Shown here: positions 5,706 to 29,952 of the stretch, piece by piece
Layout: every line of letters begins with the position of its first letter
Position numbering within the stretch: position 1 is the first letter of the stretch
Assembly: GCA_017515425.1 (NCBI GenBank)
Contig: JAFWFU010000027.1
Coordinates: forward strand, 1 to 33,199
DNA from: Mogibacterium sp.
GTDB lineage: Bacteria > Bacillota > Clostridia > Peptostreptococcales > Anaerovoracaceae
Direction: 5' to 3'
DNA length: 33,199 nucleotides
Program-made: the position numbers and the translations under genes
Notes under the pieces: generated by a model
What the model saw: the letters and a program-made list of their open reading frames with translations, nothing else
Databases searched by the model: none
Told to the model about the DNA's origin: nothing

Positions 5706-6184
5706 TACTGCCCCTCTATTGCTTGATTAAGCGCGATACTCGCTGCGTTTATGATTCCAACAGATGACATCGTCGCACCGCTTATCGAATCTACCGCTGT
5801 AGTCTGCGCTTCTATCATCTTCGGAAGCAGAGCCTCCGCCATGCTGAGATAGGCAGAGTCTTCGCCGGGCGCAGATAGTATCTTAATATCGGTTATATTC
5901 CCACCGCTGACTGTCAGCTCCACGCTGATTAAATCGCCATAGCCCTTCGACTCACCCTCATATACTCCGTCCTTATATCCGCTATTCGTGCTTGCGTTCC
6001 CGCTCGCCTGCGTACCGCTTGACGAAGCTGTCCCGGCTCCTTCATATGCCGCTTCGAGTTCCGCTGTCAGCTTCGCGATTTCCTCATCCTTTTCTCGCAT
6101 AGAAAGCGTCACATTGTAACCGGAGATTGCCGCTATGCACAGGGCAAATGCGATAATTCTTATCACTATGTCTGTATCTTTCAT
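5705..6184 (-). CDS. membrane-anchored single FMN-binding domain protein (RnfG/NqrC-like)
   Basis: A 159-residue protein with an N-terminal membrane anchor (residues about 8-28), a short charged helix (REKDEEIAKLTAELEAAYE), a Ser/Thr/Gly linker and one FMN-binding domain. That domain starts at YKDGVYEGESKGYGD and ends with the flavinylation motif DSISGAT followed by MSSVGI; ApbE attaches FMN to the Thr of this motif. It sits between the triple-domain protein (22 bases upstream) and the NapH-like gene (one-base overlap). It is probably the flavin subunit that takes electrons from the NapH-like protein and passes them outward. Ribosome-binding site GGAG lies 13 bases before the ATG. Confidence 0.88.
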   Translation of the reverse strand: MKDTDIVIRIIAFALCIAAISGYNVTLSMREKDEEIAKLTAELEAAYEGAGTASSSGTQASGNASTNSGYKDGVYEGESKGYGDLISVELTVSGGNITDIKILSAPGEDSAYLSMAEALLPKMIEAQTTAVDSISGATMSSVGIINAASIALNQAIEGQ

Positions 6185-6206
6185 AAAAATCTATTTTCTC
6201 CGCTTT

Positions 6207-8761: not shown

Positions 8762-8788
8762 AATCCTTCGACTGCGCTAAGGGCGTCA
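8762..8788 (-). repeat. dispersed repeat, half copy 3
   Basis: ATCCTTCGACTGCGC on the plus strand is the 3' half of the dispersed repeat read on the minus strand. It fills the gap between the converging Gx transporter and uvrA genes, and the uvrA stop codon lies at its edge. Confidence 0.6.
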
Positions 8789-11656: not shown

Positions 11657-11731
11657 GAAGGCTATTCTACTATTTACATTATTAAAGAGCAATAACAATA
11701 TTGCCCTTTAATAATCCCGAACGCTTACTAA

Positions 11732-15277: not shown

Positions 15278-17254
15278 CTAGGCTCTTTTGCTGGCGCGGA
15301 GTTCAAAGAGCACGTCGCGGAGCTCAGCCGCCCGTTCGAAGTCAAGTTGCTTCGCGGCTTCCTTCATATTCTTCTCCACCTCTCTGATAGTATCACGAAG
15401 CTCGGAAGCCGTCATGCTCTTCGCGTCCTTAAAGTCACGCTCACCCACATACTCGCTCGTAGCTCTCGCAATCTCACGAATCGGCTTGACGATAGTCCTA
15501 GGCACTATGCCATTTGCCTTGTTATACTCAGCCTGAGCCGCACGACGCCTCGCCGTCTCATCAATGCAGACCCTCATCGCCTTGCTTATCTTATCCGCAT
15601 ACATGATTACGCGCCCGTCCGCATTACGCGCGGCACGCCCGACGGTCTGTATCAGCGAAGTCTCCGTCCTGAGGAAGCCTTCCTTATCCGCGTCAAGTAT
15701 CGCAATAAGCGATACCTCCGGCAAATCCAGCCCTTCTCTGAGGAGGTTGATACCCACCAGCACATCAAATTTTCCCATACGCAGGTCGCGTATTATCTCC
15801 AGCCTCTCAAAATTATCAATTTCGGAATGCAGATACCTTACCTTGATACCTTCGCCCTGCAGGAACTTCGTCAAATCCTCCGCCATTCTCTTGGTGAGAG
15901 TGGTGACGAGCACGCGCTCACCCTTGTCAGCAGTCCTGTAAATCTCTCCGATTAAATCGTCTATCTGCCCCTCCACGGGTCTGACCTCTATCTTAGGGTC
16001 GAGCAGCCCCGTCGGTCTTATCAGTTGTTCTGCGGTAATGCCACTCGATTTCTCGAGCTCGTATGCTGCGGGAGTTGCCGAAACATATACCGTCTGATTG
16101 GTTAGCTTCGTAAACTCATCGAATTTGAGCGGTCTGTTGTCGAATGCCGAGGGCAGACGGAATCCGTATTCCACCAGCGATTCCTTTCTCGATCGGTCGC
16201 CATTATACATCGCGCGAAGCTGCGGCAGCATGGCGTGCGACTCATCAATAATCGTCAGGAAATCGCCGTCAGGGAAATAGTCAAGCAGCGTATAGGGTCT
16301 TTCACCAGGTTTCAGGAAGTTGATATGCCTCGAATAATTCTCAATTCCCTTGCAGCTTCCTATCTCCATCATCATCTCTATATCGTAATTCGTGCGCTGC
16401 TCCAGCCTCTCAGCCTCCAGCAGCTTCCCGTTCGCGCGCAGCCACGCGAGCCTCTCCGACAGCTCCTCTCTAATCGAAGCCACCGCCATCTGCATATCTT
16501 CCTTGCTCGTAACATAGTGGCTCGCCGGGAATATAGCGATATGTGTTCTGACGCCCGTCACCTCGCCCGTGAGAGGGTCAATCTCTCTAATGCTCTCTAT
16601 CTCGTCGCCGAACATCTCGATTCTGACCGCATTCTCCCCGCCTGCCGGATAGATGTCCACAATATCCCCGCGCGCGCGGAAAGTCCCCCTCGCGAAGTCC
16701 ATATCATTCCGATTATACTGAATATCCGTAAGCCTCCTCATCAGGCTCATTCTGTCCATCTCCATGCCGGGTCTCAGGCTAATGAGCTGGTTCCGGTAGG
16801 ACGAAGGGCTTCCGAGTCCGTATATACAGGAAACCGAGGCAACTATGATGACATCACGCCTCTCAAGCTGAGCCGCAGTCGCCGAATGCCTCAGTTTGTC
16901 AATCTCGTCATTTATATCCGCGTCCTTTTCTATATACAAATCCGTCGAGGGCACATAAGCCTCCGGCTGATAGTAGTCGTAATATGATACGAAATATTCC
17001 ACGGCATTGTCGGGGAAAAACTCCTTGAACTCTCCATGAAGCTGAGCCGCCAATGTCTTATTATGTGAAATCACAAGCGTCGGTTTCTGCACAGCCTCGA
17101 TAATTTTTGCCATGGTAAACGTCTTGCCGGAACCCGTCACACCCATTAGGGTCTGTGCCTGCCTGCCCGCAAGTATGCCGTCCGCAATCCTCTTAATCGC
17201 CTGCGGCTGGTCGCCCGTCGGCGCAAATTCACTTTTTACTTTAAATACTCCCAT
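15278..17254 (-). CDS. uvrB: excinuclease ABC subunit B
   Basis: UvrB verifies DNA damage and recruits UvrC in nucleotide excision repair. The 658-residue protein has Walker [13 protein letters not shown], the beta-hairpin region [21 protein letters not shown], the DESHA box ([11 protein letters not shown]), helicase motifs [17 protein letters not shown] and [19 protein letters not shown], and a C-terminal UVR motif ([18 protein letters not shown]). Length is normal. The start at 17254 has AAAAGGAT nine bases upstream. It lies 58 bases after the TIM-barrel gene and could be read from the carbon operon or from its own promoter; I found no LexA-type box. The peroxidase-CDF pair follows 77 bases later. 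Confidence 0.97.
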
Positions 17255-17312: not shown

Positions 17313-18242
17313 CTAGATTACCATTGCTTCCTTTAGGACTTTGATAGATGTAAGGTGTCCGTCCAACATGGGCATTGTCAAGTCTTCCATTTCGAGAGAG
17401 ATGACATCATCATAACCGCTCATGCGAAGGACCGAGACGAATTCCTTCCACCAGAGCACATCATGCCCGCAGCCGACAGCCACATAGTTCCATGAGCGCT
17501 TCGCATACTCCTCAATGCCCTTTGTATCCATTATCCCGTTCACGCCGATATATCGGCGCTCGGGTCTCGAATCCTTTCCGTGGACATAATAGAGTGCGCC
17601 TTCCTCTCCCAAAACCCGAGCCGCCTCAATGGGATCTCCGCCCATCCAAAAGAGATGAGAAGGGTCGAGGTTCATGCCGATAAGGGAATCGCCTGCGGCG
17701 TCTCTGAGGCGAAGGCATGTCTCGGGGTTATAGACGAGCTGCTGCGCGTGATTTTCAAGAGCTATCTTTTCTATACCTCTATCCCTGGCGACAGCGACTA
17801 TCTCCTTCCATTTAGGGATTGCCACCTCTTCCCATTGATATTTTAAAACATCAAGGACTTCAGGCGGCCAGGAGCCCGTAACCCATACGGGAGTCTTATC
17901 GCCGGGGCAGCCCACAGGAAGCCCGCTCATCATAACGACAGTTCTGACTCCGAGCCTCTCAGCCAGCTCAAATGTTTTCAGCATGATATTCCAATCGCTC
18001 TCATAGGCTAATTGATTGCCAGAGCAATTAAGGGCGCAGAGCTCGAGCCCCGCGTCCTTAATCTTTCCATGCCATTCGTCTCTTGCGGCTTCGCTTTTAA
18101 TCATCATATCCAGGTCAATATGAGGCGCCGCCGACCAATTACCTGTCCCTATTTCCAAAGCTTCTATTCCCTGCCCTGCGCAGAATCTGAGCATATCGTC
18201 AAAGCTCATGTCCAGCGTGCAGGTCTTTATACCAAGTCTCAT
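17313..18242 (-). CDS. sugar phosphate isomerase/epimerase-like TIM-barrel protein
   Basis: A 309-residue protein of the xylose-isomerase-like/AP-endonuclease-2 TIM-barrel family that includes IolE, IolH and IolI. Probable metal ligands are in ALENHAQQ, GMNLDPSHL, YYVHGKD and SLEMEDL. It is the last gene of the inositol cluster, nine bases after the IolG-like dehydrogenase, with AGAGG before the ATG. It may be an inosose isomerase that brings other inositol isomers into the pathway, or an IolH-like protein. It could also act on the four-carbon product in the transketolase route proposed here. The sequence does not decide its substrate. Confidence 0.8.
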   Translation of the reverse strand: MRLGIKTCTLDMSFDDMLRFCAGQGIEALEIGTGNWSAAPHIDLDMMIKSEAARDEWHGKIKDAGLELCALNCSGNQLAYESDWNIMLKTFELAERLGVRTVVMMSGLPVGCPGDKTPVWVTGSWPPEVLDVLKYQWEEVAIPKWKEIVAVARDRGIEKIALENHAQQLVYNPETCLRLRDAAGDSLIGMNLDPSHLFWMGGDPIEAARVLGEEGALYYVHGKDSRPERRYIGVNGIMDTKGIEEYAKRSWNYVAVGCGHDVLWWKEFVSVLRMSGYDDVISLEMEDLTMPMLDGHLTSIKVLKEAMVI

Positions 18243-18251
18243 AATGCCTCT

Positions 18252-19280
18252 TTATTTATACATCTCGGGTTTTTCAATCATGTCGATTTTCTTGAACTCT
18301 GATGTGCCGCGCGATGCGTTCAGGGCGTCTCCCGCTACGCAGGCGACATATCCGTCCCATGAGGAAGGCCCTCTCAGAGCACCTTCATGTATCGCATTCA
18401 CCCAATCCGTAAACTCAATATCATATGCGTCGATAAATCTATCCTTCCAATCGACCATGATAGGCATATTCTCTCCCGGCAGCCTGTTTGGATCCGGACG
18501 GGATCTTCTGACTACCGCATACGGGTCTGGGAGCTTCACCGTTCCGTTCTCGCAGACGACCTCGCATTGAATATCATAGCCATAGCCATCGGCGACCTGC
18601 ACCTCTACATCTATGAAGCAGCCGTTCTTCGTTCTGAGGAGAACCACCTGCGGATTGTCGTATTCCTTTGAATTTGACGACTGACGCACCCTTACCACCT
18701 GTCCGTCCTCATACTCGTCACCGAGGAGCCATCGGCAGATGTCGAGCTCGTGAATAGCCACATTGGTAATTCCGTTCTCGGTTTTAAATCCGGGGCCCTG
18801 TGATACATTGCGGTGAGCGGCTTTGATGAGGAGCGGCTTGCCAATCTCTCCGCTGTCGATTATCCTCTTCATCTCCGCATAGCCCGTATCATAGCGGCGC
18901 ATGAAGCCTACCTGCACGAGTTTCTTGCCTATCTCCTGTTCCCTTGCCATGATTTCCTCGCAGTCCTTCGCGTTCTGCGAGAGCGGCTTTTCGCAGAAGC
19001 ACCACTTCTCCTCAGCCAGCGTTTTCATAACATAGTCATGGTGAGTCGGGTCGATTGACGTGATGACTACCGCCTCTACGTCCGGGTCTTTAATCATGCC
19101 GTCGCAGTCGTTTCCGTATGATTTTATTCCGTAAGCTGCGGCTGTTTCGTCCGCTGCCTCCGCCACATAGTCACTGACCGCCACCACAGTGCAACCGGCG
19201 ATATTGTTGATAAGACGTCTGCAATGGTCTTTGCCTATCGCACCGCAGCCGACAATTCCGATTTTAAGTTCTTTATCCAT
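18252..19280 (-). CDS. iolG: Gfo/Idh/MocA oxidoreductase, probable inositol 2-dehydrogenase
   Basis: A 342-residue NAD(P)-dependent dehydrogenase. The N-terminal Rossmann fold has KIGIVGCGAIGKDHCRRL, the EKP motif is in WCFCEKPLSQN, and the active-site block is TNVAIHELDICRWLLGDE. Inositol dehydrogenase oxidises myo-inositol to 2-keto-myo-inositol, the first step of the pathway. The IolG call rests on family plus position directly after IolE, IolB and IolD; it could use another inositol isomer. The start at 19280 has AAAGGA seven bases upstream; an earlier in-frame ATG lacks this spacing. Confidence 0.78.
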   Translation of the reverse strand: MDKELKIGIVGCGAIGKDHCRRLINNIAGCTVVAVSDYVAEAADETAAAYGIKSYGNDCDGMIKDPDVEAVVITSIDPTHHDYVMKTLAEEKWCFCEKPLSQNAKDCEEIMAREQEIGKKLVQVGFMRRYDTGYAEMKRIIDSGEIGKPLLIKAAHRNVSQGPGFKTENGITNVAIHELDICRWLLGDEYEDGQVVRVRQSSNSKEYDNPQVVLLRTKNGCFIDVEVQVADGYGYDIQCEVVCENGTVKLPDPYAVVRRSRPDPNRLPGENMPIMVDWKDRFIDAYDIEFTDWVNAIHEGALRGPSSWDGYVACVAGDALNASRGTSEFKKIDMIEKPEMYK

Positions 19281-19318
19281 TGTAAATCCTTTCTGTATGT
19301 TTTCCATAAAGATTCTTA

Positions 19319-21247
19319 TTAGTATTTGCGCGCTGTTTTCAGGTGTTCGAGCATATCCTTATATGCCGCTCTGTTTCCAGGAAGATTGGAGACCTCCGTA
19401 TCTCCGCAGCGCCACCACGCGCCATAGCCCTCCGTCATGGTCTTAGGCAGAACCTTGATGTCAAAGAGCACCGGCTGATTTTTCACCTTCTTGGCATCTA
19501 TCAGTGCCGCGGTGAGTTCTTCCAATGTTCGAATCGAATAGCTCTTGCAGCCATAGCCCTCCGCCACCTTGGCATAGTCAACATTCATAAATTTGCCCGT
19601 GAGTCCCGACTTGGTGCGATAACGCATTTCCGTCGCGAGCGTCTTGTTGCCATGACCCACCTGCAAATTGTTTATGCAGCCGAAGCTTGCATTGTCGAAG
19701 AGGCAGATATTTATTTTCTTTCCTTCCTGAACGGCGGTCAGAAGCTCACTATGCATCATATTAAAGCTTCCGTCACCCACGAACGAATAGACCTCTTTGG
19801 CATCTCCCACGGCGAGCTTGACGCCAAGCGCACCGGAAACCTCATATCCCATGGTGGAATATCCGTATTCCATATTATAGGTATCGACGGCATTCGGACG
19901 CCACATTCTCTGCATATCCCCCGGGAGCGAGCCCGAAGCACCGATTGCGACATCTTCCGGGTTAATCATTGCATTGATAAGCCCTAGCGCCTCTGTCTGG
20001 GTGAGCTCTGCATTTAAATCCTCGGCAAATCTATGTGCGGAGTCCATATTCTCGTCCTGCACAATCGCCTTCCAAGTCTTGGTATTCTTGTATTTGAAAT
20101 TATCCAGCCTGTCGAGCTCCTTCGCCCATTTGTCGCGAGCCTTCTTAATCTCATCCTTATAGCCTGCCTTATAGCCCTTGAGAAGCTTGGCGAGCTCCGG
20201 AAGAGCCACCTTAGCGTCAGCGAATACCGGAACGGCGTCCAGCTTCAGAGCCTGGAACTGACTGATATTTATGTTTACGAATTTGGCAGTTTCCTTGAAG
20301 AGCCAGCGCGAAGCCGTCGTGAAATCCGTATACCTGGTGCCAACACCGATAATGAGGTCTGCCTTTTTTGCGATTTCGTTTGCCGCAGAGCAGCCCGTAA
20401 CACCAATGCCTCCGAGGTTGAGCGGGTGAGTCCAAACAACTGCGGATTTTCCCGCCTGAGTCTCACCGAACGGAATATTGAATTTCTCGGCAAATTTCAC
20501 AAACTCCTCATGCGCCTCTGAATAGCGAACACCGCCACCGCAGATGAGGATAGGTCTCTTCGCATTCTTAATCGCCACTGCCGCTTGTTCGAGCACCTCC
20601 GCCTGTGGTGCGCGGCGATCGAGCGTCCATACGCGCTTAGCGAAGAAGGACTCGGGATAGTCATACGCCTCGCCCTCTACGTCCTGCGGGATTGCGATAC
20701 ATACTGCGCCCGTATTTGCAGGGTCTGTCAGAGTTCTGAAAGCGTTGAGCATAGCACTCATAAGCTGCTCAGGTCTTACGATCCTGTCCCAATAACGGCA
20801 AACCGCCTTGAATGCGTCATTCGTCGTAATCGCCATGGACTGTAGCTGCTCCACCTGTTGCAGCACGGGATCCGGCTGACGGCAGGCATATGTATCTCCC
20901 GGCAGTACGAGCAGCGGGATATTATTCGCAGTCGCAGTTCCGCAGGCTGTAACCATATTGGCAGCTCCCGGACCTACCGATGATGTGCAGGCGAAAATCT
21001 GCTTGCGCTTCATCTGCTTAGCGAAGGCAACAGCCGCCTGAGCCATGCCCTGCTCATTCTTTCCTTGGTAAATCTCAAGGTGTTTAGCCTCCTGTGTCAA
21101 TGCCTGTCCGAGCCCCAGCACATTTCCATGTCCCGGAATCATAAACACGCCTTTTACAAAACGGACTTCTTTTCCGTCATAGGACAGATATTGGTTTTCC
21201 ATGAAGCGAACCAATGCCTGTGCCATTGTCAAACATACGGTTTTCAT
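19319..21247 (-). CDS. iolD: 3D-(3,5/4)-trihydroxycyclohexane-1,2-dione hydrolase
   Basis: IolD opens the inositol-derived ring to give 5-deoxy-glucuronate, using thiamine diphosphate. The 642-residue protein is of family length with ALVRFMENQYLS, the GHGNVLGLGQAL and YQGKNEQGMAQAAVAFAKQ blocks, and the ThDP/metal motif GDGSFNMM ending near LFDNASFGCINN. The C-terminus (KTMTEGYGAWWRCGDTEVS) is also typical. AGGAGG precedes the ATG at 21247. It is 23 bases after iolB and 38 before the IolG-like gene, so all are probably on one transcript. Confidence 0.95.
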   Translation of the reverse strand: MKTVCLTMAQALVRFMENQYLSYDGKEVRFVKGVFMIPGHGNVLGLGQALTQEAKHLEIYQGKNEQGMAQAAVAFAKQMKRKQIFACTSSVGPGAANMVTACGTATANNIPLLVLPGDTYACRQPDPVLQQVEQLQSMAITTNDAFKAVCRYWDRIVRPEQLMSAMLNAFRTLTDPANTGAVCIAIPQDVEGEAYDYPESFFAKRVWTLDRRAPQAEVLEQAAVAIKNAKRPILICGGGVRYSEAHEEFVKFAEKFNIPFGETQAGKSAVVWTHPLNLGGIGVTGCSAANEIAKKADLIIGVGTRYTDFTTASRWLFKETAKFVNINISQFQALKLDAVPVFADAKVALPELAKLLKGYKAGYKDEIKKARDKWAKELDRLDNFKYKNTKTWKAIVQDENMDSAHRFAEDLNAELTQTEALGLINAMINPEDVAIGASGSLPGDMQRMWRPNAVDTYNMEYGYSTMGYEVSGALGVKLAVGDAKEVYSFVGDGSFNMMHSELLTAVQEGKKINICLFDNASFGCINNLQVGHGNKTLATEMRYRTKSGLTGKFMNVDYAKVAEGYGCKSYSIRTLEELTAALIDAKKVKNQPVLFDIKVLPKTMTEGYGAWWRCGDTEVSNLPGNRAAYKDMLEHLKTARKY

Positions 21248-21270
21248 TTTCCTACCTCCTCAGTAAGCTT

Positions 21271-22074
21271 TTATTTATTCGGATAGATATGCTCGTTCGC
21301 GTCGTCCTTCCAGAGCCATTCATGCTCCTTATCGTCAATACGGGTCTTTTTCCACGGGTCGCCCTCAAGATGTCTTATACCCCACGCATAGCACATGGCA
21401 TATCCCGGTGCAGCCGTCTGCGAGTGGAATGCTTCGGTAATCGCAATCATTCCGTTATGCGTGGTCTTGAAGATTTCCCCGTTCGCAAAGCCCGCTCCGA
21501 AGCCCTGCGGCTCATCAAATCTGTAGAAATAAACCTCAGGCTGCGGGTGGTGATGTGGCGGATATGACGACCATTTACCCGGATAGTTCAGAACCTCTCC
21601 GAGCACCATATTGGAAAACGGCGCATTGTCGTAGTCGAAGAAGGTCTTGATCTCCCTCTGCATACAGCCCATGAGCTCTCCGTTTGAGCCCGCGTGCTGC
21701 ACCTGCACAGTCTCGGGTGTATACATGACCGACTCATATTTGTTCGTATTCTTGGTAGCCTGAACGTAGATCTCGCTATGCGCCTTCGCTTTAATCTTAA
21801 TCTCCGTGTCGCAGCTTGCCAGCAGGCAATACGCCTCGTGATGAAATGAGTTCGGTCTGTCCGCCTCAAGGCTCTTGCCGTCCCATTCGTAAACGACATT
21901 CCCTTCAAAGAGGAGAAGAGCCACTTCCTTTTCGGCTTCACAGTAAGTCCAGACATCACCCTCTTCCATAATCAGGAGTCCCACGTCCATCAGCGTACCG
22001 AGGTCATCCGCGTCGCTGTCGATATAGACATTATAGCCCTGCTTTAAATCATTCTTTTCAATATATGAACTCAT
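21271..22074 (-). CDS. iolB: 5-deoxy-glucuronate isomerase
   Basis: IolB converts 5-deoxy-glucuronate to 2-deoxy-5-keto-gluconate (DKG). The 267-residue double-cupin protein shows the metal-binding block YPPHHHPQPEVYFYRF and the C-terminal PGYAMCYAWGIRHLEGDPW with a later HEWLWKDD. Length is normal for the family. It is 81 bases after iolE, across a short tandem repeat, and 23 before iolD. Its product DKG is where the standard pathway needs the kinase IolC, which is absent here. Confidence 0.95.
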   Translation of the reverse strand: MSSYIEKNDLKQGYNVYIDSDADDLGTLMDVGLLIMEEGDVWTYCEAEKEVALLLFEGNVVYEWDGKSLEADRPNSFHHEAYCLLASCDTEIKIKAKAHSEIYVQATKNTNKYESVMYTPETVQVQHAGSNGELMGCMQREIKTFFDYDNAPFSNMVLGEVLNYPGKWSSYPPHHHPQPEVYFYRFDEPQGFGAGFANGEIFKTTHNGMIAITEAFHSQTAAPGYAMCYAWGIRHLEGDPWKKTRIDDKEHEWLWKDDANEHIYPNK

Positions 22075-22088
22075 ATATCGCTTTCCTT

Positions 22089-22142
22089 TCTCTGCTATCT
22101 CTGCTATCTCTGCTTTCTCTGATTTCTTTGCTTTCGTTGCTT
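22089..22142. repeat. 9-bp tandem repeat between iolE and iolB
   Basis: Six 9-bp units (two identical TCTCTGCTA, then four variants) lie just upstream of the iolB ribosome-binding site. On the mRNA strand they are purine-rich (AGCAGAGAT-like). Unit number could vary and change the leader length. Confidence 0.8.
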
Positions 22143-22155
22143 TCCGTATGAACGA

Positions 22156-23064
22156 TTACAGTCCCGTATGCTCGCGGATATACGCGCGTCCCTTCATGGC
22201 GTATTCCAATGGATTAGCCTTTGCCGGATCCTGCTCCGCCTCTACCAAAAGCCAACCACTATAGCCTGCGTCAGCCAGCACCTTGAAGATTGGATCAAAG
22301 TCCACATCTCCGTCTCCCGGCACGGTGAACGCACCGCTTCTTACCGCCTGCAAAAAGCTCATCTCATTCTTTCTGACCTCTTCAACGACAGGAAGCCTCA
22401 TATCCTTGAGATGAACATGACCTATGCGGTCTGAGTATTTTTTGAGCATAGTCAGAGGATCTTCGCCGGCGAAGGTGAAATGCCCCGTATCATAGCAGAG
22501 GAATACGAGATCGGGATCTGTATTCGACATCATGCGGTCAGTCTCCTCGCTCGTCTGAACGACAGTGCCCATATGATGATGAAAACAGAGCTTAAATCCG
22601 CGGTCTTTGGCGATCCTGCCGAGATGGTTCAGCCCCTTGCAGAAAATATCCCACTCCTCGTCATTCATAATATATTTATTATTCCCCGTGAGAATGGGAA
22701 CTTCCATTTTGCCCTGAATGGAATAACTCTGCTCGCTGACGTTAATGCGATTTGCGCCTACCGCAGCCAGGAAATCCAAATTGGCTATGAAGTCCTTTTC
22801 CTCTTCCTCAATCGGTCTTGTAATAATAAATGATGAATACCAGCGGCTGGCAATCCTCATGCCGCGCAGATCCAGCGCCTTTTTAAGCTCCACCGGGTCA
22901 GTCGGATATTTGTTTCCGATCTCGCAGCCCGTAAAGCCCGCCAATGCCATTTCACTTACTATCTGCTGGAAGGTATTCTCCCCGCCCAGCTCCGGCATAT
23001 CGTCGTTGCACCAGCCAATCGGTGCTATTCCGAGATGCACTTCCTTTTCATTGAACATACCCAT
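22156..23064 (-). CDS. iolE: inosose dehydratase (myo-inosose-2 dehydratase)
   Basis: IolE removes water from 2-keto-myo-inositol to give the trihydroxycyclohexane-dione. The 302-residue TIM-barrel protein has the family opening LGIAPIGWCNDDMPELGGENTFQQ (split here by a few residues), GCEIGNKYP, CFHHHMGT, YDTGHFTFAGEDP, HVHLKDMR and LVEAEQDP, which include the metal ligands. The ATG at 23064 has GAGGAG eight bases upstream. It is the first of the iol genes and lies 149 bases after the transketolase, the longest internal gap in this stretch, where a separate promoter could sit. Confidence 0.94.
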   Translation of the reverse strand: MGMFNEKEVHLGIAPIGWCNDDMPELGGENTFQQIVSEMALAGFTGCEIGNKYPTDPVELKKALDLRGMRIASRWYSSFIITRPIEEEEKDFIANLDFLAAVGANRINVSEQSYSIQGKMEVPILTGNNKYIMNDEEWDIFCKGLNHLGRIAKDRGFKLCFHHHMGTVVQTSEETDRMMSNTDPDLVFLCYDTGHFTFAGEDPLTMLKKYSDRIGHVHLKDMRLPVVEEVRKNEMSFLQAVRSGAFTVPGDGDVDFDPIFKVLADAGYSGWLLVEAEQDPAKANPLEYAMKGRAYIREHTGL

Positions 23065-23213
23065 TGCATATTCTCCTCATATATTTATTATTTTGCTAAT
23101 TGCTGCCTGTTTTACAGTTAAAATTATTTATTGGGATTGCGCTCGAGACCACTCCTAAGATTGCGCTCAATACCGCGATTGATACCACGCTCAATCCCAT
23201 GCTCGGCTTCTCG

Positions 23214-24152
23214 CTATTTAAGCCCTTTTACGACCTCTGCGATATGGTCGCACGTAAGGTCAAATCTCTTACGCAGATAGTCCTGAGGCCCGACCTCGCC
23301 GAACTCGTCCTCTACCGCCACATATCCGAATTTCAGCGGCAGTCCGCATACAGCCTCCTGAACGGCTGATGTGAGTCCGCCAATGCGATTGTGGTTCTCA
23401 GCAACTACCACCATGCCCATCTTTTCGGCATATTCGCGAATCGTCTTGACGTCGAGCGGCTTGATTGTTATTGGGTCAATAACCGTCATCTCAATCCCGT
23501 CCTTTGCCAGAGCCTCGGCAGCCTGAAGCGCCTCATGCACCATGATACCGCTTGCAACGATAACTCCGTCCTTTCCTTCGCGAAGCACAACCGCCTCTCC
23601 GGGTGTGAACTTCGTGCCGTCCGCATAAACCTGATAGGAGTCCTTCCTCGGAACCCTGATATATTTAACGCCCGGCATATCCTTGGCTTTTTTAAGAGCG
23701 TCGACGAGCATTGGCACATCAGTTATGTCGAAAATCGTTGCTCCCGGCAGTGCGCGGTAAAGCGCGACGTCCTCGAAAGGCATATGAGTTCCGCCGTTAA
23801 ATGCAGCCGTAATCCCCGGGTCTGTTCCAATCATTGTTATTGGGTTGTTCGCATAGCCTGCTGCCAAAAATACCTGGTCGAAGCAGCGACGCGAAGCGAA
23901 AGGCCCGAAGCTGTGAGCATAAGGCTTCATTCCGGAAGCGGAAAGCCCCGCCGCAATTCCTGCCATATTAGCCTCTGCGATACCGCAGTTAATAACGCGA
24001 GCGTCATCAATCTTGTTTGTTCCGCTGCAACCCATGAGGTCGGCGTCAAGCCATACGACTTTATCATCTTCCTTTAGGAGAGCCTCGACAGTCTCCCCGA
24101 TAATATTCTTAAATTGACGAGAATCTTTTTCTCCGTTGTATACAATCTTCAT
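23214..24152 (-). CDS. split transketolase, C-terminal subunit
   Basis: A 312-residue protein with the pyrimidine-binding and C-terminal domains of transketolase. INCGIAEANMAGIAAGLS holds the glutamate that activates thiamine diphosphate; SFGPFASRRCFDQV, NGGTHMPFEDVALYRALPG and the C-terminal AENHNRIGGLTSAV are typical. It works only with the N-terminal subunit encoded 14 bases upstream. Split transketolases are common in Clostridia, and several are specialised for catabolic ketoses (sulfofructose or apulose-4-phosphate transketolases). Position directly before iolE, iolB and iolD raises the idea that it acts on the IolB product. An ordinary pentose-phosphate role remains the simpler alternative. 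Confidence 0.88.
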   Translation of the reverse strand: MKIVYNGEKDSRQFKNIIGETVEALLKEDDKVVWLDADLMGCSGTNKIDDARVINCGIAEANMAGIAAGLSASGMKPYAHSFGPFASRRCFDQVFLAAGYANNPITMIGTDPGITAAFNGGTHMPFEDVALYRALPGATIFDITDVPMLVDALKKAKDMPGVKYIRVPRKDSYQVYADGTKFTPGEAVVLREGKDGVIVASGIMVHEALQAAEALAKDGIEMTVIDPITIKPLDVKTIREYAEKMGMVVVAENHNRIGGLTSAVQEAVCGLPLKFGYVAVEDEFGEVGPQDYLRKRFDLTCDHIAEVVKGLK

Positions 24153-24166
24153 CTGCCTGCACCTCC

Positions 24167-24994
24167 CTATGCTTCCAGGGCATTCAGATTGCCCTTAATC
24201 TCTTCAATCCAAGCGTCAAACACTTCGGCTGCCACGGTCATGGAGTGGTTGCCCGCAGCCTTCTCGACCTCGGACACGCCCTTGCCCTTCACGGTGTCGA
24301 GGATAATGGCAATCGGCTTGTCTGTCGGCTCCTTCGACAGTGCTGCTTTGAGCTGCGTCACGTCATTTCCGTCAATAGTGCAGGCGTCAAATCCGAACGC
24401 TCTGAACTTCTCCTCGAAGTCAAAAGGCTCAAGTATATCCGAAACATATCCGTCAAGCTGCTTCTTATTCCAATCGACGAGCCATACGAGGTTCGTCAGC
24501 TTCTTAGCTGCCGTAAACATTGCGGCTTCCCAAACCTGTCCTTCGTTAGCCTCTCCGTCACCTACAAGGAGATACGTCTTGCAGTCTCTGCCTTGGAGCC
24601 TGTCTCCAAGCGCGAGACCTACAGCCTCGGAAGTTCCCTGTCCGAGAGAACCCGTAGTCATATCCACTCCCACAGTCTTGTTCATATCGCAATGTGACGG
24701 GAAATTAGTTCCCGGCTGGTTCAGAGTAAGGAGCTCTTCTCTTGGGAAGAATCCCTTGAGTGCGAGCGTCGCATATACCGCAGGGCCCGCATGTCCCTTT
24801 GAGCTTACCAGCTTGTCTCTATCCGGTTTCTTTGGGTTTTTCGGATCCACGTCCATGATTTCTCCGTAAAGAACTGCCAATGCGTCACATACGGAGAGGC
24901 TTCCGCCTATGTGTCCGAATCCTCTGGACTTGATACATTCAACTGTAGCAAGCCTTATCTCCAGAGCAAATTTTTCTAACTCCTTTGTGGTCAT
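24167..24994 (-). CDS. split transketolase, N-terminal subunit
   Basis: A 275-residue protein with the pyrophosphate-binding domain of transketolase: GHIGGSLSVCDALAVLY, SSKGHAGPAVYATLA, TGSLGQGTSEAVGLALG, and the ThDP/magnesium motif GDGEANEGQVWEAA ending near WLVDWNKKQLDG. It pairs with the downstream C-terminal subunit to form one active enzyme, which moves a two-carbon ketol group from a ketose to an aldose. The ATG at 24994 has AGGAGG just upstream. It follows the malic enzyme gene by 51 bases. Confidence 0.9.
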   Translation of the reverse strand: MTTKELEKFALEIRLATVECIKSRGFGHIGGSLSVCDALAVLYGEIMDVDPKNPKKPDRDKLVSSKGHAGPAVYATLALKGFFPREELLTLNQPGTNFPSHCDMNKTVGVDMTTGSLGQGTSEAVGLALGDRLQGRDCKTYLLVGDGEANEGQVWEAAMFTAAKKLTNLVWLVDWNKKQLDGYVSDILEPFDFEEKFRAFGFDACTIDGNDVTQLKAALSKEPTDKPIAIILDTVKGKGVSEVEKAAGNHSMTVAAEVFDAWIEEIKGNLNALEA

Positions 24995-25045
24995 ATCTCT
25001 CCTCCTGATGATTACACTAATACTATGCTAACATTTTTACCGTTT

Positions 25046-26218
25046 TTATATTCTCGCGACGCCCGTCCTTCTTGCTGCCTCAGCGACCGCCTTTGCAACT
25101 GCAGGTCCCACCGCAGGGTCAAACGCCTCAGGGATTATATAATCCGCCGAAAGCTTATCGTCCGGAATCAGCCCCGCCAGAGCCTCCGCAGCCGCAATCT
25201 TCATTTCCTCGTTGATTTCCTTAGCCCTGCTGTCGAATACTCCGCGGAAAATGCCCGGGAATGCAAGCACATTGTTAATCTGATTTGGGAAATCACTTCT
25301 TCCCGTGGCTATAACAGCGGCGCCGCCCGCCTTCGCTTCATCCGGGAATATCTCCGGCGTCGGATTCGCGCAGGCGAAGATGATTGCATCTTTATTCATC
25401 GTCTTTACCATTTCCGTCGTAACCTGCCCCGGTGCCGAAACGCCGATGAATACGTCGGCGCCCACCAGCATTTCCGCAAGGCTGCCGCTTCTTTTCTCCC
25501 TATTCGTCATCTGCGCCATTTCTTCCTTAATCCAATTCAAACCGTCTCTTCCCTCATAGATAGCGCCCTTGCGGTCACACATAACCACATCTTTATATCC
25601 TGATGACAGCAGCAGTTTAACGATAGCAATGGCGGCAGCTCCGGCTCCAGATGTTACAATCTTCACATCTTCCTTTTTTTTGCCCGTAATCTTCATGGCA
25701 TTTGTAAGCCCGGCAAGCGTGATTACGGCAGTTCCGTGCTGGTCGTCATGGAAGATTGGAATATCGCATTTTTCCTTGAGCTTACGCTCTATCTCAAAAC
25801 AGCGAGGAGCCGAAATATCCTCTAAATTTATTCCGCCGAAGGAGCCCGAAATCAGATAAACCGCATTTACAAATTCGTCTACATCATGCGTCTTTACGCA
25901 GAGAGGAAATGCGTCCACTCCGCCAAAAGCTTTAAATAGTACGCATTTGCCTTCCATTACGGGCATACCGCCCTCAGGTCCAACATCTCCGAGACCGAGC
26001 ACGGCGGTTCCGTCCGTGATAACGGCACAGAGATTGTGGCGGCGCGTCAAGTCGTAAGACTTTTCCACGTCCTTTTGAATTTCGAGACAGGGCTCAGCCA
26101 CGCCCGGCGTATAAGCCAAGGACAAATCTTCCTTGGAAGCCACGGGCACGGTGGAGATTACCTCTATCTTGCCCTTCCATTCCTCATGCAGTCTTAACGA
26201 CTCCTTTGCATAGTCCAT
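25046..26218 (-). CDS. malic enzyme (NAD-dependent, short form)
   Basis: The enzyme turns L-malate into pyruvate and CO2 with reduction of NAD(P). The 390-residue protein is the short bacterial form: SLAYTPGVAEPCLEI, AVITDGTAVLGLGDVGP, PIFHDDQHGTAVITLAGL with metal ligands, the Rossmann motif GAGAAAIAI, and IFACANPTPEIFPDEA. It is followed closely by the transketolase genes and preceded by a LarA-family racemase. In the proposed pathway it would remove malate formed from inositol. Whether it prefers NAD or NADP cannot be read safely. Confidence 0.92.
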   Translation of the reverse strand: MDYAKESLRLHEEWKGKIEVISTVPVASKEDLSLAYTPGVAEPCLEIQKDVEKSYDLTRRHNLCAVITDGTAVLGLGDVGPEGGMPVMEGKCVLFKAFGGVDAFPLCVKTHDVDEFVNAVYLISGSFGGINLEDISAPRCFEIERKLKEKCDIPIFHDDQHGTAVITLAGLTNAMKITGKKKEDVKIVTSGAGAAAIAIVKLLLSSGYKDVVMCDRKGAIYEGRDGLNWIKEEMAQMTNREKRSGSLAEMLVGADVFIGVSAPGQVTTEMVKTMNKDAIIFACANPTPEIFPDEAKAGGAAVIATGRSDFPNQINNVLAFPGIFRGVFDSRAKEINEEMKIAAAEALAGLIPDDKLSADYIIPEAFDPAVGPAVAKAVAEAARRTGVARI

Positions 26219-26277
26219 AAGTATATTTTCCTTTCTTTAATAATTCCTTACATTATTGATTGTCAATCATTTCACAA

Positions 26278-27537
26278 TCATAAAGATAAATCCCTTGCTA
26301 TCGGCAATGTCGCGCCGCCAAACGGCATGGCTATCACGCTCGCATCCTCGCCGTATTTCTCAAAAGCCTCATCAAACGCCTCTTGCGCACTTGGCTGAGG
26401 GTTTAAAAATATGCTTCGCACAAAATCATCTTCCATATCGGATACGAGGTCAATATCCGCGTTCTCAAGCACCATGGCGATTGCCGCAGCCTTATGTCCG
26501 CCGAGCTGAAAATGCCTCTCGATTCTTTCAATCATTGAATGCGCCGTTGGCGCATTCACGAGCCATTCCTCGAAATGCGCGGAGCCAAGCCCTTCCTTGC
26601 ACGAACCAATCAGGATAATCCTTCCGCCCTTCTTGACGGCGTGCTTGGCATTGTCGAGAGCCTTCTGCGTCTGATATAGATTTGCGTCCTTTGGCGCACC
26701 GCCCTGAGAAACGATTACTATATCCGCCCTTTCGGGGATTTCAACGCGGTACATCTTATCAAGGTATTCGCAGCCTGCCCTATGCGCCTTCACGACATCA
26801 CCGGCGACCGCATAGACTATATTCTTGTGCTCGTCCAATACCGCATTTACTATATAGTCGATTCCGACCTTTTCACCCGCCTCTTCAATATCCGCGCGCA
26901 CGGGGTTTCCTTCGAGCCTACCTGCGCAGGCATCTTCGGAGACCATCATGCTGTGATTTGCCTGTATCGCTTCCGGCGTAGACACGCCCGGCATTATAGC
27001 CTTGGCGCCGCCCGAATAGCCGGCGAAATAATGGAACTCAATATTGCCAAGGCAAATACGCCTGTCAGCCTCAGCCACCGACCTCGTGATGTCAACAGGC
27101 GTCCCATTCTTCGTCTCTCCCATATGAACACAGTTATCAACTTCGGAGTCCACGCATTTGACGCGTTCAAATACCGCGTCCCCAACGAGGTGACGCATTT
27201 CTTCCTCGGTCTGCTTTCTATGCGAGCCGAGCCCGAACACCACGGTTATATCTTCGTCCGGAACTCCCGCAGCCGAGAGCTCGTCCAGCACGGCAGGTAT
27301 GACATCATAGCTCGGCAAGGGTCTTGAGATGTCGCTCGTTATAATCGCTATCTTCTCTCCCGCATTCACCTCGTCTCTGAGCAGCCCTTTTCCGATAGGG
27401 TGTGCAAGGGCGTAGCGGACTGCGTCCTCGCCTTTTCTCTTATGCTCCATTTCGTTGGCTTTCAGAGTGGCTATCAGGTTTTTATCAGGCACTACTACCT
27501 CTTGGATTCCATTCCCGAATCCGAATTCCAATTTCAT
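26278..27537 (-). CDS. larA: LarA-family nickel-pincer 2-hydroxyacid racemase
   Basis: LarA enzymes use a nickel-pincer nucleotide bound covalently to a lysine to racemise or epimerise 2-hydroxyacids. The 419-residue protein keeps all key residues with the spacing of Lactobacillus LarA: H106 (GLGSHRKQT), H169 and K179 (FHYFAGYSGGAK) and H195 (IQANHSMM), plus SDISRPLP. The family includes lactate, malate and other racemases and a gluconate epimerase, so the substrate is open. Its place 59 bases before malic enzyme makes malate a good candidate. LarB, LarC and LarE, needed to build the cofactor, are not in the window. It is 15 bases after pgk, with TAGGAG 12 bases before the ATG. Confidence 0.85.
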   Translation of the reverse strand: MKLEFGFGNGIQEVVVPDKNLIATLKANEMEHKRKGEDAVRYALAHPIGKGLLRDEVNAGEKIAIITSDISRPLPSYDVIPAVLDELSAAGVPDEDITVVFGLGSHRKQTEEEMRHLVGDAVFERVKCVDSEVDNCVHMGETKNGTPVDITRSVAEADRRICLGNIEFHYFAGYSGGAKAIMPGVSTPEAIQANHSMMVSEDACAGRLEGNPVRADIEEAGEKVGIDYIVNAVLDEHKNIVYAVAGDVVKAHRAGCEYLDKMYRVEIPERADIVIVSQGGAPKDANLYQTQKALDNAKHAVKKGGRIILIGSCKEGLGSAHFEEWLVNAPTAHSMIERIERHFQLGGHKAAAIAMVLENADIDLVSDMEDDFVRSIFLNPQPSAQEAFDEAFEKYGEDASVIAMPFGGATLPIARDLSL

Positions 27538-27552
27538 TCCTAAACAATTCTC

Positions 27553-28812
27553 CTACTTCTCTGCTCCGAATTTTGAGCCTGCGTGACGAAGCGCCTTTAC
27601 CACAGGCAGTTCCTCGCCCGTCAGGAAGCGGATAAGCGCCCCGCCGCCCGTACAGACATAGCCGAGTCTATCCGTCACCTTATACTTCTTCGCAGCCGTC
27701 ACGCTGTCTCCGCCGCCGACCACCGTATAGGCGTCGGTATCCGCTAACGCCTCAAATACAGCCTTCGTGCCCGCCTCACTCGGCTCCTGCTCAAAGACTC
27801 CCATAGGTCCGTTGACAAATACCGTCTTTGCCTTTGCAATATGCTCCTCATAGAGTCTGATAGTCTCAGCGCCAATATCCACCGCGCTTATCTCACCCAT
27901 AGCCTCACCGACAGCAGCTTCCTTCCTCTCGCCGTTCTCTACAAAGGCAATATCCACAGGAAGCACTATCTTGTCGGCGTATTTCTCATAAAGAGCCTTC
28001 GCCTTGGGGATATAATCCTCGTAATTCTTCGCATAGATGAAGTCCACGCTGCCCTTTCCGACATCTTTGCCTATTCCATGCAGCAGTATCTGTCCGACCA
28101 GCCCACCTGTGAGCACCTTGTCTGCAACGCCCTTCCCGAGCACCGTCTCCATCATTATGAATGCGTCGGAGATCTTCGCTCCGCCAAGCACAAATACGCA
28201 AGGTTTGTCGGGAGACTCCATGAGCTCGGAGATTACCACATATTCCTTTTCAAACAGCCTTCCCATGGCTGAGGGCATAAGCTGCTCAAATCCGCAGAGA
28301 GTCGGCTGGTCTCTATGTGAGGCGGCGAATGCGTCGCAGACATAGAGGTCGCCAAGCGGTGCGAGCTTCTGAACCACCTGAGTCTTAGCCTGCTCCTCAT
28401 GCGTGAGTTTCAACTTCATCTCGAAAAGCGTCTGCTCCTCAGAGCAATAGCGCACATTGTCCAAAAGGAGCACCTCTCCTTCATTCAAAGCTGTGATAGC
28501 CTCTCGCGCGGCAGGTCCGCAGACGTCGTCCACCCATTTAACCTCTTTGCCGAGAAGCCCCTCGAGCACCTTCGCATGAGGTCTGGTATTGTAAAAATTC
28601 TCATATTCTATATCACTTCCCTGATGTGCCAGAACGACCAATTTGGCTCCGGCGTCAGAGATTTCCTTTAAAGTCGGCGCACATGCCTCGATTCTCGCCG
28701 TGCTCCTGAGGGAATCGTTCTCCCAATCAACAGGCTGATTCATGTCCACGCGGCAAAGCACCGTCTTACCCTTTAGATTAAATTCATCTAATGTGCAGAT
28801 ACCGAAACGCAA
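27553..28812 (-). CDS. pgk: phosphoglycerate kinase, archaeal-like
   Basis: PGK makes ATP from 1,3-bisphosphoglycerate in glycolysis. The 419-residue protein has VLCRVDMNQPV, LAHQGSDIEYENFYNTRPHA, DAFAASHRDQPTLCGF, VFVLGGAKISDAF, VNGPMGVFEQEP, VVGGGDSVTAAKKY and CTGGGALIRFLTGEELP. Several of these (DMNQPV, the LAHQG block, AFAASHRDQP) look closer to archaeal PGK than to the usual bacterial RVDFNVP type; a tree would be needed to prove it. The start is TTG at 28812 with AAGGAG six bases upstream; the open frame before it has no such site. It follows a type II GAPDH, which is also archaeal-type, across a terminator-like hairpin. Confidence 0.92.
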   Translation of the reverse strand: MRFGICTLDEFNLKGKTVLCRVDMNQPVDWENDSLRSTARIEACAPTLKEISDAGAKLVVLAHQGSDIEYENFYNTRPHAKVLEGLLGKEVKWVDDVCGPAAREAITALNEGEVLLLDNVRYCSEEQTLFEMKLKLTHEEQAKTQVVQKLAPLGDLYVCDAFAASHRDQPTLCGFEQLMPSAMGRLFEKEYVVISELMESPDKPCVFVLGGAKISDAFIMMETVLGKGVADKVLTGGLVGQILLHGIGKDVGKGSVDFIYAKNYEDYIPKAKALYEKYADKIVLPVDIAFVENGERKEAAVGEAMGEISAVDIGAETIRLYEEHIAKAKTVFVNGPMGVFEQEPSEAGTKAVFEALADTDAYTVVGGGDSVTAAKKYKVTDRLGYVCTGGGALIRFLTGEELPVVKALRHAGSKFGAEK

Positions 28813-28833
28813 TTTACTCTCCTTCCCGTTTTC

Positions 28834-28879
28834 AAAAAAGAAAACACTAGGGAGAGGGGGCATTCCCCCATCTCCCCTA
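28834..28879 (-). terminator. terminator/attenuator between GAPDH and pgk
   Basis: On the minus strand a GC-rich stem (GGGGAGATGGGGG against CCCCCTCTCCC, small bulges) is followed by GTGTTTTCTTTTTT. It has the shape of a rho-independent terminator. Since pgk and the rest of the cluster follow, it probably stops part of the transcripts and gives GAPDH higher expression. Confidence 0.7.
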
Positions 28880-28893
28880 ATTTATCAATCGTC

Positions 28894-29952
28894 CTATTTC
28901 TTAAAATTACCAATGCCGAGGTATTTGTTGGTCTCCGCAGTTCCCTCTTCGCGGGTTTTCTGAACTCCCATCAGAGCGCGAACAGCGTCAATCGTCTCAG
29001 GAATTGTGACGGATTCCTGCGGAATATGAATAGCATACATGATGTCATTTCCGGACTCTACGAGAGAATCCTCCCAGAGACCGATTTCGTAAATATCTCC
29101 CCTGCGGTTTCCGAGATCGCGACCATATTTAAAGAAGGAAGCATTCCCGCTGAACCCTTCGTCGATTCTCACGACGCGAATACGCGGATGTTTCTGGAAC
29201 GCCGCCAGAGCCTCTTCCTTTGTAATCTTCTTTCCGTCCTTGCCGGAAGCGAGCACGGTTATGATATGTCCGTGCGTTACAGGCGTATGCACCAAAATAC
29301 CTGTAGCCTCTACATGCGGCATGATTGTCATAAGGTCTACCGCCTGATGTGACGGTGCCTTGTCCATCTGGAGCGCGTTGGTGAGCCCTCTGTGATAATC
29401 TCCTGGGTCTGCTACACGGCGAATGATAGTGATTGCAACCTTGCCGACTCCAAACTCACGGTCGAGGCAGTCGACTGTACGAATGAGACCCGTCGTATTG
29501 CAGGAAGTCAGCTTGAGATAATCCTGTCCGAGTCCCTCTTCGTAATTGGCATAGCCGTGGAAAAATACGTCAGCCACGGAGTTCTTCTCTCCGCCCTGGA
29601 AAATCGCCTTAACGCCGTATTTCTCATAGTAGTTCTCTTTGTTCTTCGCGCCTACTCCGCCCGGCGAGGAGTCGAGCATAACGTCTACATTCTTGCAAAG
29701 CTCCTCGAATGTGCCTGCTACGGGAATATCCTTAGCCTTGAATGCGTCCTTGTTCGCTCCGTCTACGAGATAAACTTTGTACTCGACGCCGTTGGCACCG
29801 ATCATATCCTTTTCTCTGAGAGCCTGAAGCGATAATGTGGGGGCGAGATCTGCAATGCCTACGAGCTCCATATCTCCCTGCATGGCAACTCCGTCTGCAA
29901 GTCTCTGTCCGATTGTACCGTATCCTGCTACGCCTACTTTGATTTTACTCAT
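28894..29952 (-). CDS. type II (archaeal-type) glyceraldehyde-3-phosphate dehydrogenase
   Basis: A 352-residue GAPDH that oxidises glyceraldehyde-3-phosphate to 1,3-bisphosphoglycerate. It is not the usual bacterial GapA but the type II family known mainly from Archaea: N-terminal KVGVAGYGTIGQRLADGV, LDSSPGGVGAKN, catalytic C151 in KLTSCNTTGLIRT, and RRVADPGDYHRG. The ATG at 29952 has GGGAGG about nine bases upstream. It heads the long minus-strand cluster; a good promoter lies about 190 bases upstream. An archaeal-like PGK follows, so the pair may have been gained together by transfer. It might also oxidise another aldehyde of the cluster, but nothing in the sequence shows this. Confidence 0.93.
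   Translation of the reverse strand: MSKIKVGVAGYGTIGQRLADGVAMQGDMELVGIADLAPTLSLQALREKDMIGANGVEYKVYLVDGANKDAFKAKDIPVAGTFEELCKNVDVMLDSSPGGVGAKNKENYYEKYGVKAIFQGGEKNSVADVFFHGYANYEEGLGQDYLKLTSCNTTGLIRTVDCLDREFGVGKVAITIIRRVADPGDYHRGLTNALQMDKAPSHQAVDLMTIMPHVEATGILVHTPVTHGHIITVLASGKDGKKITKEEALAAFQKHPRIRVVRIDEGFSGNASFFKYGRDLGNRRGDIYEIGLWEDSLVESGNDIMYAIHIPQESVTIPETIDAVRALMGVQKTREEGTAETNKYLGIGNFKK

Follow-up and report, generated by a model that had tools for sequence, protein, structure and literature searches.

A possible route of inositol catabolism through D-malate, with a transketolase and a second GAPDH-PGK pair, in a gene run of Mogibacterium

Introduction

How might a bacterium degrade inositol when its genes for the upper part of the standard pathway stand in one run with a transketolase, a malate racemase and a malic enzyme, and the genes for the lower part are not in sight? 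The question is raised by a stretch of 33,199 nucleotides (the window, below) from the gut bacterium Mogibacterium sp., contig JAFWFU010000027.1 of GenBank assembly GCA_017515425.1. The window is contig 40 of the organism's own 1.73 Mb genome assembly (G000), which is 90% complete. A reading of the bare sequence, confined to an interval that ended at position 27537, had proposed that the transketolase cleaves 2-deoxy-5-keto-gluconate (DKG), the product of the upper inositol genes, so that the pathway would lead to D-malate. That interval omits the start of the same run, which consists of a type II glyceraldehyde-3-phosphate dehydrogenase (GAPDH), here called GAPII, and a divergent phosphoglycerate kinase (PGK), here called PGK2, the latter lying 15 bases beyond the interval. 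With these two genes included, we consider it likely, at a probability of roughly 0.7, that the run specifies another type of inositol catabolism, in which the transketolase would cut DKG and GAPII and PGK2 would yield D-malate and ATP.

The gene run

The run (29952 to 17313, minus strand) comprises eleven head-to-tail genes with intergenic gaps of 9-149 bases. Families were called with NCBIfam profiles and their curated cut-offs, plus Pfam. In the order of transcription the genes are:

28894-29952, minus strand: GAPII, type II (archaeal-type) GAPDH, first gene (NF003251 394 bits, cut-off 185)
27553-28863, minus strand: PGK2, divergent PGK (PF00162 377 bits)
26278-27537, minus strand: LarA, nickel-dependent malate racemase of the LarAH6 family (NF052593 570 bits, cut-off 500)
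25046-26218, minus strand: malic enzyme (PF00390 and PF03949 over cut-off)
24167-24994, minus strand: TKn, thiamine-diphosphate half of a split transketolase (PF00456 139 bits)
23214-24152, minus strand: TKc, pyrimidine-binding and C-terminal half of the split transketolase (PF02779, PF02780)
22156-23064, minus strand: IolE, myo-inosose-2 dehydratase (TIGR04379 408 bits, cut-off 290)
21271-22074, minus strand: IolB, 5-deoxy-glucuronate isomerase, which makes DKG (PF04962 152 bits, over cut-off; TIGR04378 91 bits, under cut-off 205)
19319-21247, minus strand: IolD, trihydroxycyclohexanedione acylhydrolase (TIGR04377 890 bits, cut-off 715)
18252-19307, minus strand: IolG-like inositol dehydrogenase, nearest to the myo-/D-chiro-inositol type (NF052679 369 bits, under cut-off 540)
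17313-18242, minus strand: TIM-barrel isomerase-like protein, last gene (PF01261, xylose-isomerase-like, 107 bits; IolE model 23 bits)

The gene list of the sequence-only reading is borne out, in that IolE, IolD and LarAH6 exceed their NCBIfam cut-offs and the split transketolase and malic enzyme are clear by Pfam. Its IolB and IolG-like calls stand as the best NCBIfam matches of those two proteins, but at scores under the cut-off. A second clear IolE at 17313-18242 was ruled out by the low score of the IolE model as against PF01261; the product may possibly be an inosose isomerase. The absence of iolC, iolJ and iolA from the window was also correctly noted, since none of the 27 open reading frames scanned against NCBIfam was so called. 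The reading had conceded one weak point, that no clear semialdehyde dehydrogenase was visible, and this is answered by GAPII and PGK2, which are candidates for the missing step. Promoter-like and terminator-like sites are no more frequent than in shuffled sequence. Downstream of the run, uvrB follows 58 bases after the last gene.

A proposed route from inositol to malate

In the route that we propose, IolG, IolE, IolD and IolB would convert inositol to DKG, which would not be phosphorylated by an IolC; the reactions from DKG onward are those that we infer. DKG is a plausible transketolase donor because, drawn as a ketose in Fischer projection, it has the fructose-like D-threo arrangement at C3 and C4. 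The split transketolase would transfer the two-carbon unit of DKG to glyceraldehyde-3-phosphate, and the products would be xylulose-5-phosphate and D-3-hydroxy-4-oxobutanoate (malate semialdehyde). By our own reasoning from the same projection, removal of C1 and C2 should leave the aldehyde in the D series, like D-glyceraldehyde-3-phosphate, and the two aldehydes would then share the CHO and D-CHOH groups, with CH2COO- in place of CH2OPO3. GAPII and PGK2 fit the next two steps because D-malate semialdehyde is analogous to D-glyceraldehyde-3-phosphate, a carboxylate replacing the phosphoester. GAPII is thus proposed to be a phosphorylating D-malate-semialdehyde dehydrogenase, which would use NAD(P) and phosphate to make 1-phospho-D-malate, and PGK2 an ATP-forming malyl-phosphate kinase, which would transfer the phosphate to ADP to give D-malate and ATP. 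LarA would then racemise D-malate to L-malate, and malic enzyme would convert L-malate to pyruvate and CO2. With non-oxidative pentose-phosphate recycling, the inferred stoichiometry would be three inositol to about five pyruvate and three CO2.

Exclusion of iolC and recurrence of the gene set

Searches for iolC and iolA in the organism's own genome, and for the same gene set in other genomes, had been named as ways to check the transketolase interpretation, and the outcome supports it. In the 90% complete own genome, the best match to iolC reaches 41 bits against a cut-off of 300, and none was found for iolA; a dedicated iolJ model was not run. Of 391 genomes drawn evenly from the class, 28 have iolD and 13 have iolC at scores over the cut-off. 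The 28 iolD genomes divide into 12 with GAPII, 11 with iolC, none with both and 5 with neither. Fisher tests that ignore kinship give p 0.00025 for the mutual exclusion of GAPII and iolC within the 28 and p 2e-12 for the association of GAPII with iolD over all 391, and the 12 genomes with iolD and GAPII are spread over ten families. In one of the five genomes with neither (G096), an iolC that looks truncated (283 bits) lies next to iolD. The iolA gene was dropped as a discriminator between routes: it is uninformative because it is over cut-off in just two of 11 genomes with iolD and iolC and in one of 12 with iolD and GAPII (G372).

Strong GAPII matches, of at least 64% identity, occur in 16 of the 391 genomes at 18 places, the remaining matches being at most 40% identical over a part of the protein. 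At the 17 places outside the window GAPII is accompanied, always on its own strand, by PGK2 (16), LarA (13), TKn (10), IolD (8) and malic enzyme (6); a single place, L073, has none of the five. A scan of named species considered the best 80 of 469 stretches encoding GAPII relatives, a set that leans to near relatives of the window and in which 23 loci are shorter than 12 kb. These 80 loci hold PGK2 in 72 cases, LarA in 60, TKn in 48, TKc in 46 and malic enzyme in 32, together with IolB in 48, IolE in 47 and IolD in 42, and five have no partner at all. The partners lie on the strand of GAPII with the exception of one case each for TKn, TKc, IolD, IolE and IolB. Within the 30 named loci of at least 20 kb, the counts are PGK2 29, LarA 26, IolD 26, IolB 26, IolE 25, TKn 20 and malic enzyme 17. 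Judged by record titles, the hosts are mostly Clostridia, many of them from rumen or gut, along with four metagenome-assembled genomes (MAGs) of Spirochaetes, one member of the Synergistaceae and a Coriobacteriia MAG; Oscillibacter valericigenes An411 (L149) is an isolate among them, in which GAPII and PGK2 have no other partner within 10 kb.

Other neighbours recur as well. A gene cluster is present in 45 of 98 loci, and the representative that was scored is an IolG over cut-off; ribose-type ABC transporter genes lie near GAPII in 13 loci, and HAD phosphatases in 20. These neighbours fit inositol use, and the phosphatases could release inositol from its phosphates. As separate observations, a pyruvate-dehydrogenase-type E1 alpha gene lies near GAPII in L098, L099, L106 and L108, and in L099 an E2-like gene (under cut-off) also stands ahead of GAPII, PGK2 and LarA.

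Extra copies with altered residues

GAPII is not the housekeeping GAPDH, because a type I GAPDH is also present in the organism's own genome (G000:C14:2319-3287, 405 bits, cut-off 367). Indeed, a type I GAPDH match is found in all 19 genomes that carry GAPII or PGK2, and it is over the cut-off in 18. A weak GAPII match at G000:C25 was considered as a housekeeping enzyme and ruled out, the gene being a diaminopimelate dehydrogenase. In the same way PGK2 is an extra PGK, since the genome also holds an ordinary one (G000:C45:20751-21911) that is 36% identical to it. When 40 genomes (G000 and 39 relatives) were searched with PGK2, some PGK was matched in 39, and copies at least 84% identical to that of the window were found only in G000, G017, G019 and G020, the one in G019 being partial at a contig end. 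The nearest solved relatives of GAPII are 2czc, 1cf2, 2yyy and 1b7g, and that of PGK2 is 2cun, all of which we take to be archaeal enzymes.

The catalytic residues of GAPII, Cys151 and His227, are kept in 99 of 99 loci. All 99 have Gln-Ala (Q203-A204) at a site where the three archaeal structures that were aligned have His-Gly, a pair that presumably contacts the substrate, as database annotation has it. PGK2 likewise keeps Asp23, Asn25, Arg38, His62 and Arg122 in all 89 loci, and Arg170 in all 88 that have a letter at that position. Position 65 differs: it is Ser in 75 loci (including the window), Asp in 13 and Gly in one, so that Arg is lost in 89 of 89, whereas five ordinary PGKs used for comparison have Arg (4) or Lys (1), and 2cun has Lys. 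In pig PGK, Arg65, Arg122 and Arg170 contact the 3-phosphate of the substrate (PMC7729029; here, as for each paper cited by its PMC number, our statement covers the available portions of the source).

The split transketolase is also altered. In all 58 module loci with a TKc match, TKc carries Asp111 where transketolases usually have His, and Asn119 where they usually have Asp; the same signature was seen at one of 20 loci (one of 16 distinct) with split transketolases outside the module. The sulfofructose transketolase shows the same His-to-Asp change, which its authors linked to a different head group on the substrate (PMC11659671). It thus appears that transketolase, PGK2 and GAPII are all changed at the place that would hold a phosphate. 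Among the 40 genomes, transketolases at least 91% identical to that of the window are confined to G000, G017, G019 and G020, with at most 54% identity elsewhere. Phosphoketolase was considered as a drain for xylulose-5-phosphate and rejected: in the 19 genomes the XFP_N model has a match in 7, over its low cut-off (23.7 bits) in 5 and never above 35 bits, and all nine XFP_N places listed coincide with transketolase genes.

The racemase proposed to act on D-malate belongs to a family with an assayed member. LarAH6 of Thermoanaerobacterium was assayed as a malate racemase, its in vivo role being left open (PMC7583248), and malate racemases also epimerise tartrate (PMC11770544).

Alternative explanations

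Several observations weigh against the proposed route through DKG and D-malate. The genome in which the window lies is just 90% complete. PGK2 retains two of the three phosphate-binding arginines, Arg122 and Arg170. The transketolase signature of Asp and Asn is also found at a non-module locus (L036); the Ser-to-Ala change of the sulfofructose transketolase is not shared, the residue being Cys in 47, Ser in 9 and Met in 2 of 58 loci; and the usual N-terminal Arg of transketolases aligns in just 45 of 58. In G000, G017, G020 and G063, the last a single-contig genome, the module pair gives the sole Transketolase_N match and must therefore act on sugar phosphates as well; in the window's own genome it probably serves the pentose phosphate pathway too. 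TKn is missing from 32 of the best 80 named loci (23 of the 80 being short), including the spirochaete loci L109, L115, L116 and L119. Spirochaete LarA proteins (L109, L116, L119) are just 33-35% identical to that of the window, and the only one scored, from L109, reaches 363 bits, under the malate racemase cut-off of 500. LarC is needed for the LarA cofactor (NPN), and larC was not found in G000 nor in seven more of the 19 genomes with GAPII or PGK2; it was found in the other 11 (including G017 and G019) and in 9 of 12 further genomes. In 23 of 98 loci there is a gene resembling phosphoglycerate mutase, which might indicate ordinary lower glycolysis. Finally, four of the 16 GAPII genomes (G199, G294, G306, G414) have no iolD over cut-off, and the back end therefore probably serves further sugar acids. 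In G306, GAPII stands beside an IolN-like gene and PGK2 is absent from the stretch.

Some of these points would be accommodated if GAPII and PGK2 were simply an extra copy of lower glycolysis, draining glyceraldehyde-3-phosphate and xylulose-5-phosphate, with malate semialdehyde oxidised by an unlinked dehydrogenase. GAPDH and PGK genes are often found together, both enzymes here have intact catalytic residues, and the two retained arginines and the mutase-like gene would fit glycolysis. We nevertheless regard this explanation as unlikely, since the genomes already possess a type I GAPDH and G000 an ordinary PGK, the loss of Arg65 and the changes in GAPII are uniform over all loci, and LarA, which plain glycolysis does not need, shares the locus in three quarters (60) of the best 80 named loci. 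One mutase-like protein deserves separate mention: that at L126:7376-8941, upstream of GAPII, is a circularly permuted relative of the 2,3-bisphosphoglycerate-independent phosphoglycerate mutase, with its halves swapped, and in one alignment some of its substrate-site residues look altered. It is more improbable still that the iol genes supply a standard IolC-IolJ pathway with its genes in another part of the genome, while the transketolase, LarA and malic enzyme act on some other substrate. The incomplete assembly may lack genes, iolJ was not sought, and IolA is over cut-off in one genome with iolD and GAPII (G372), all of which would leave room for such a route. It would have to contend with the distribution of iolC, found over cut-off in none of the 12 genomes with iolD and GAPII as against 11 of the other 16 iolD genomes, and with the fact that the run is one tight stretch whose iol genes adjoin the same partners in other genomes.

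A broader possibility, to which we assign a real if minority share, is that the back end (transketolase, GAPII, PGK2, LarA and malic enzyme) handles six-carbon keto-acids with the configuration of fructose in general, of which DKG would be one feed and D-fructuronate or related compounds others, the latter leading to tartrate in place of malate. At L081 (4051-13966), which belongs to a genome (G199) with no iolD over cut-off, the back end is complete and is joined by genes for a mannonate oxidoreductase (over cut-off), a Zn-dependent dehydrogenase (under cut-off) and a TRAP permease, a possible route from a sugar acid to tartrate or malate. At L107 (7987-16649) and L113 (6996-14153), GAPII, PGK2 and transketolase are joined to IolN/IolO-like genes, with no IolE, IolD or IolB shown. 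A module for several keto-acids is therefore suggested by the gene sets of these three loci. At L168 (9305-13479) GAPII and PGK2 are followed by a gene of the tartrate/D-malate dehydrogenase family (TIGR02089 over cut-off), and the tartrate epimerisation mentioned above is compatible with the same idea. On the other side, IolE, IolD and IolB are the commoner linked front end in the best 80 named loci, the window's LarA is over the malate racemase cut-off, and IolN-like and IolO-like genes occur in just 3 and 2 of 98 loci. Replacement of LarA and malic enzyme by a tartrate/D-malate dehydrogenase was observed at L168 only, one of 98 loci, and was not used as main evidence. Two further features of these loci may be recorded: ribose-type ABC transporter genes precede the IolN/IolO-like genes at L107 and L113, L107 also having LarA and malic enzyme, and a protein of the Asp/Glu racemase family is encoded ahead of GAPII and PGK2 at L168, the same family being present in L076, L080 and L135.

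Returning to the route through D-malate, we lean, by a little more than an even chance, toward a wider formulation of it in which GAPII and PGK2 constitute a second, non-glycolytic pay-off phase. Together with a transketolase that accepts carboxylates they would make up a portable module for fermenting inositol-derived DKG, and probably also keto-acids of the hexuronate type, via D-malate or tartrate with substrate-level phosphorylation.

Relation to known pathways

A close parallel is the Sulfo-TK pathway (SqwGH), whose split transketolase transfers two carbons to glyceraldehyde-3-phosphate from an anionic ketose that bears no phosphate, as is proposed here from the genes, and carries the same His-to-Asp change at the head-group site (PMC11659671). 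The differences are that its ketose bears a sulfonate rather than a carboxylate, that its four-carbon product is isomerised and cut again, that its Ser-to-Ala change is not seen in the window-type transketolase, and that, from the available portions of the paper, it apparently lacks a GAPDH/PGK pair of its own.

The standard inositol pathway (IolG-E-D-B-C-J-A) shares the upper part, as far as DKG, but leads to malonic semialdehyde and dihydroxyacetone phosphate, whereas here there is no iolC over cut-off and a cleavage into C4 and C2 is proposed. The IolM-IolN-IolO route of Thermotoga is an alternative to IolC/J. The window carries IolE, IolD and IolB instead of such genes, and the IolN/IolO-like genes stand beside GAPII in L107 and L113. 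The glycolytic GAPDH-PGK couple has the same folds and presumably the same chemistry, from aldehyde through acyl phosphate to ATP, from which the window pair differs in being extra copies with changed phosphate-site residues, tied to a malate racemase and iol genes. To our knowledge, malic semialdehyde in carnitine degradation is oxidised by an enzyme other than a GAPDH/PGK pair. A synthetic pathway with malyl phosphate as intermediate is engineered, runs from malate to the aldehyde and spends ATP, whereas the route of the window is proposed to be natural and ATP-forming.

That synthetic pathway, which makes 2,4-dihydroxybutyrate, is documented as passing through malyl phosphate and malate semialdehyde (PMC12104201, PMC5481828). 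In carnitine degradation malate semialdehyde is a natural intermediate that is turned into malate, with L-malate named there (PMC11353897) and D-malate proposed here. In the available portions of the open-access literature, pathways with malate semialdehyde or malyl phosphate are either engineered ones, for dihydroxybutyrate or related products, or concern carnitine. The inositol-to-propionate pathway of Anaerostipes is likewise an inositol fermentation of gut Clostridia, but it employs IolC, IolJ and a 3-oxoacid CoA transferase, and the available text does not mention transketolase, malate or a racemase (PMC8355322). Nor are these, or iolC, mentioned in the corresponding text of a 2025 paper on inositol metabolism in the gut (PMC12482443). 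One paper refers both to iol genes of Megamonas on phytate and to transketolase as part of the pentose phosphate pathway in other species, the two being unlinked in the available text (PMC12130570). A description of the proposed route was not found in the open-access literature searched, and subscription papers may hold one; that search returned no paper combining inositol, transketolase and malate racemase, and none with four of inositol, type II GAPDH, PGK, transketolase and D-malate. According to a 2026 study of pig-gut bacteria, known iol clusters were found in just 19 of 40 isolates able to grow on inositol, and its authors proposed a route not yet known (PMC12838507); those isolates are other organisms, and we do not claim the module as their explanation.

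Other features of the window

A gene at 213-1517 encodes a SurE nucleotidase domain fused to an isochorismatase-like domain, and there are two regions of electron-transport-like genes (1563-2792 and 4827-7472). These two regions encode an ApbE-like flavin transferase and a NapH-like ferredoxin protein, both under NCBIfam cut-offs, and FMN-binding proteins, one of which has three FMN-binding stretches. The uvrA and uvrB genes (8786-11698 and 15278-17254) lie on the same strand, and between them are a cation efflux transporter, a glutathione peroxidase-like gene and a gene (11812-13329) for a 505-residue protein that has an HTH_3 domain towards the N terminus and, under cut-off, a HipA-like match at the C terminus.

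Implications

Inositol and phytate are plentiful in plant diets, and their fermentation in gut and rumen bears on short-chain fatty acids and on phosphate release. Any rule that requires iolC would score genomes with this module as non-users of inositol. If the proposed route is true, these bacteria would have a further inositol pathway, in which LarAH6 malate racemases would find a role, and GAPII and PGK2 would provide a natural GAPDH-PGK pair that makes ATP from an aldehyde other than glyceraldehyde-3-phosphate.

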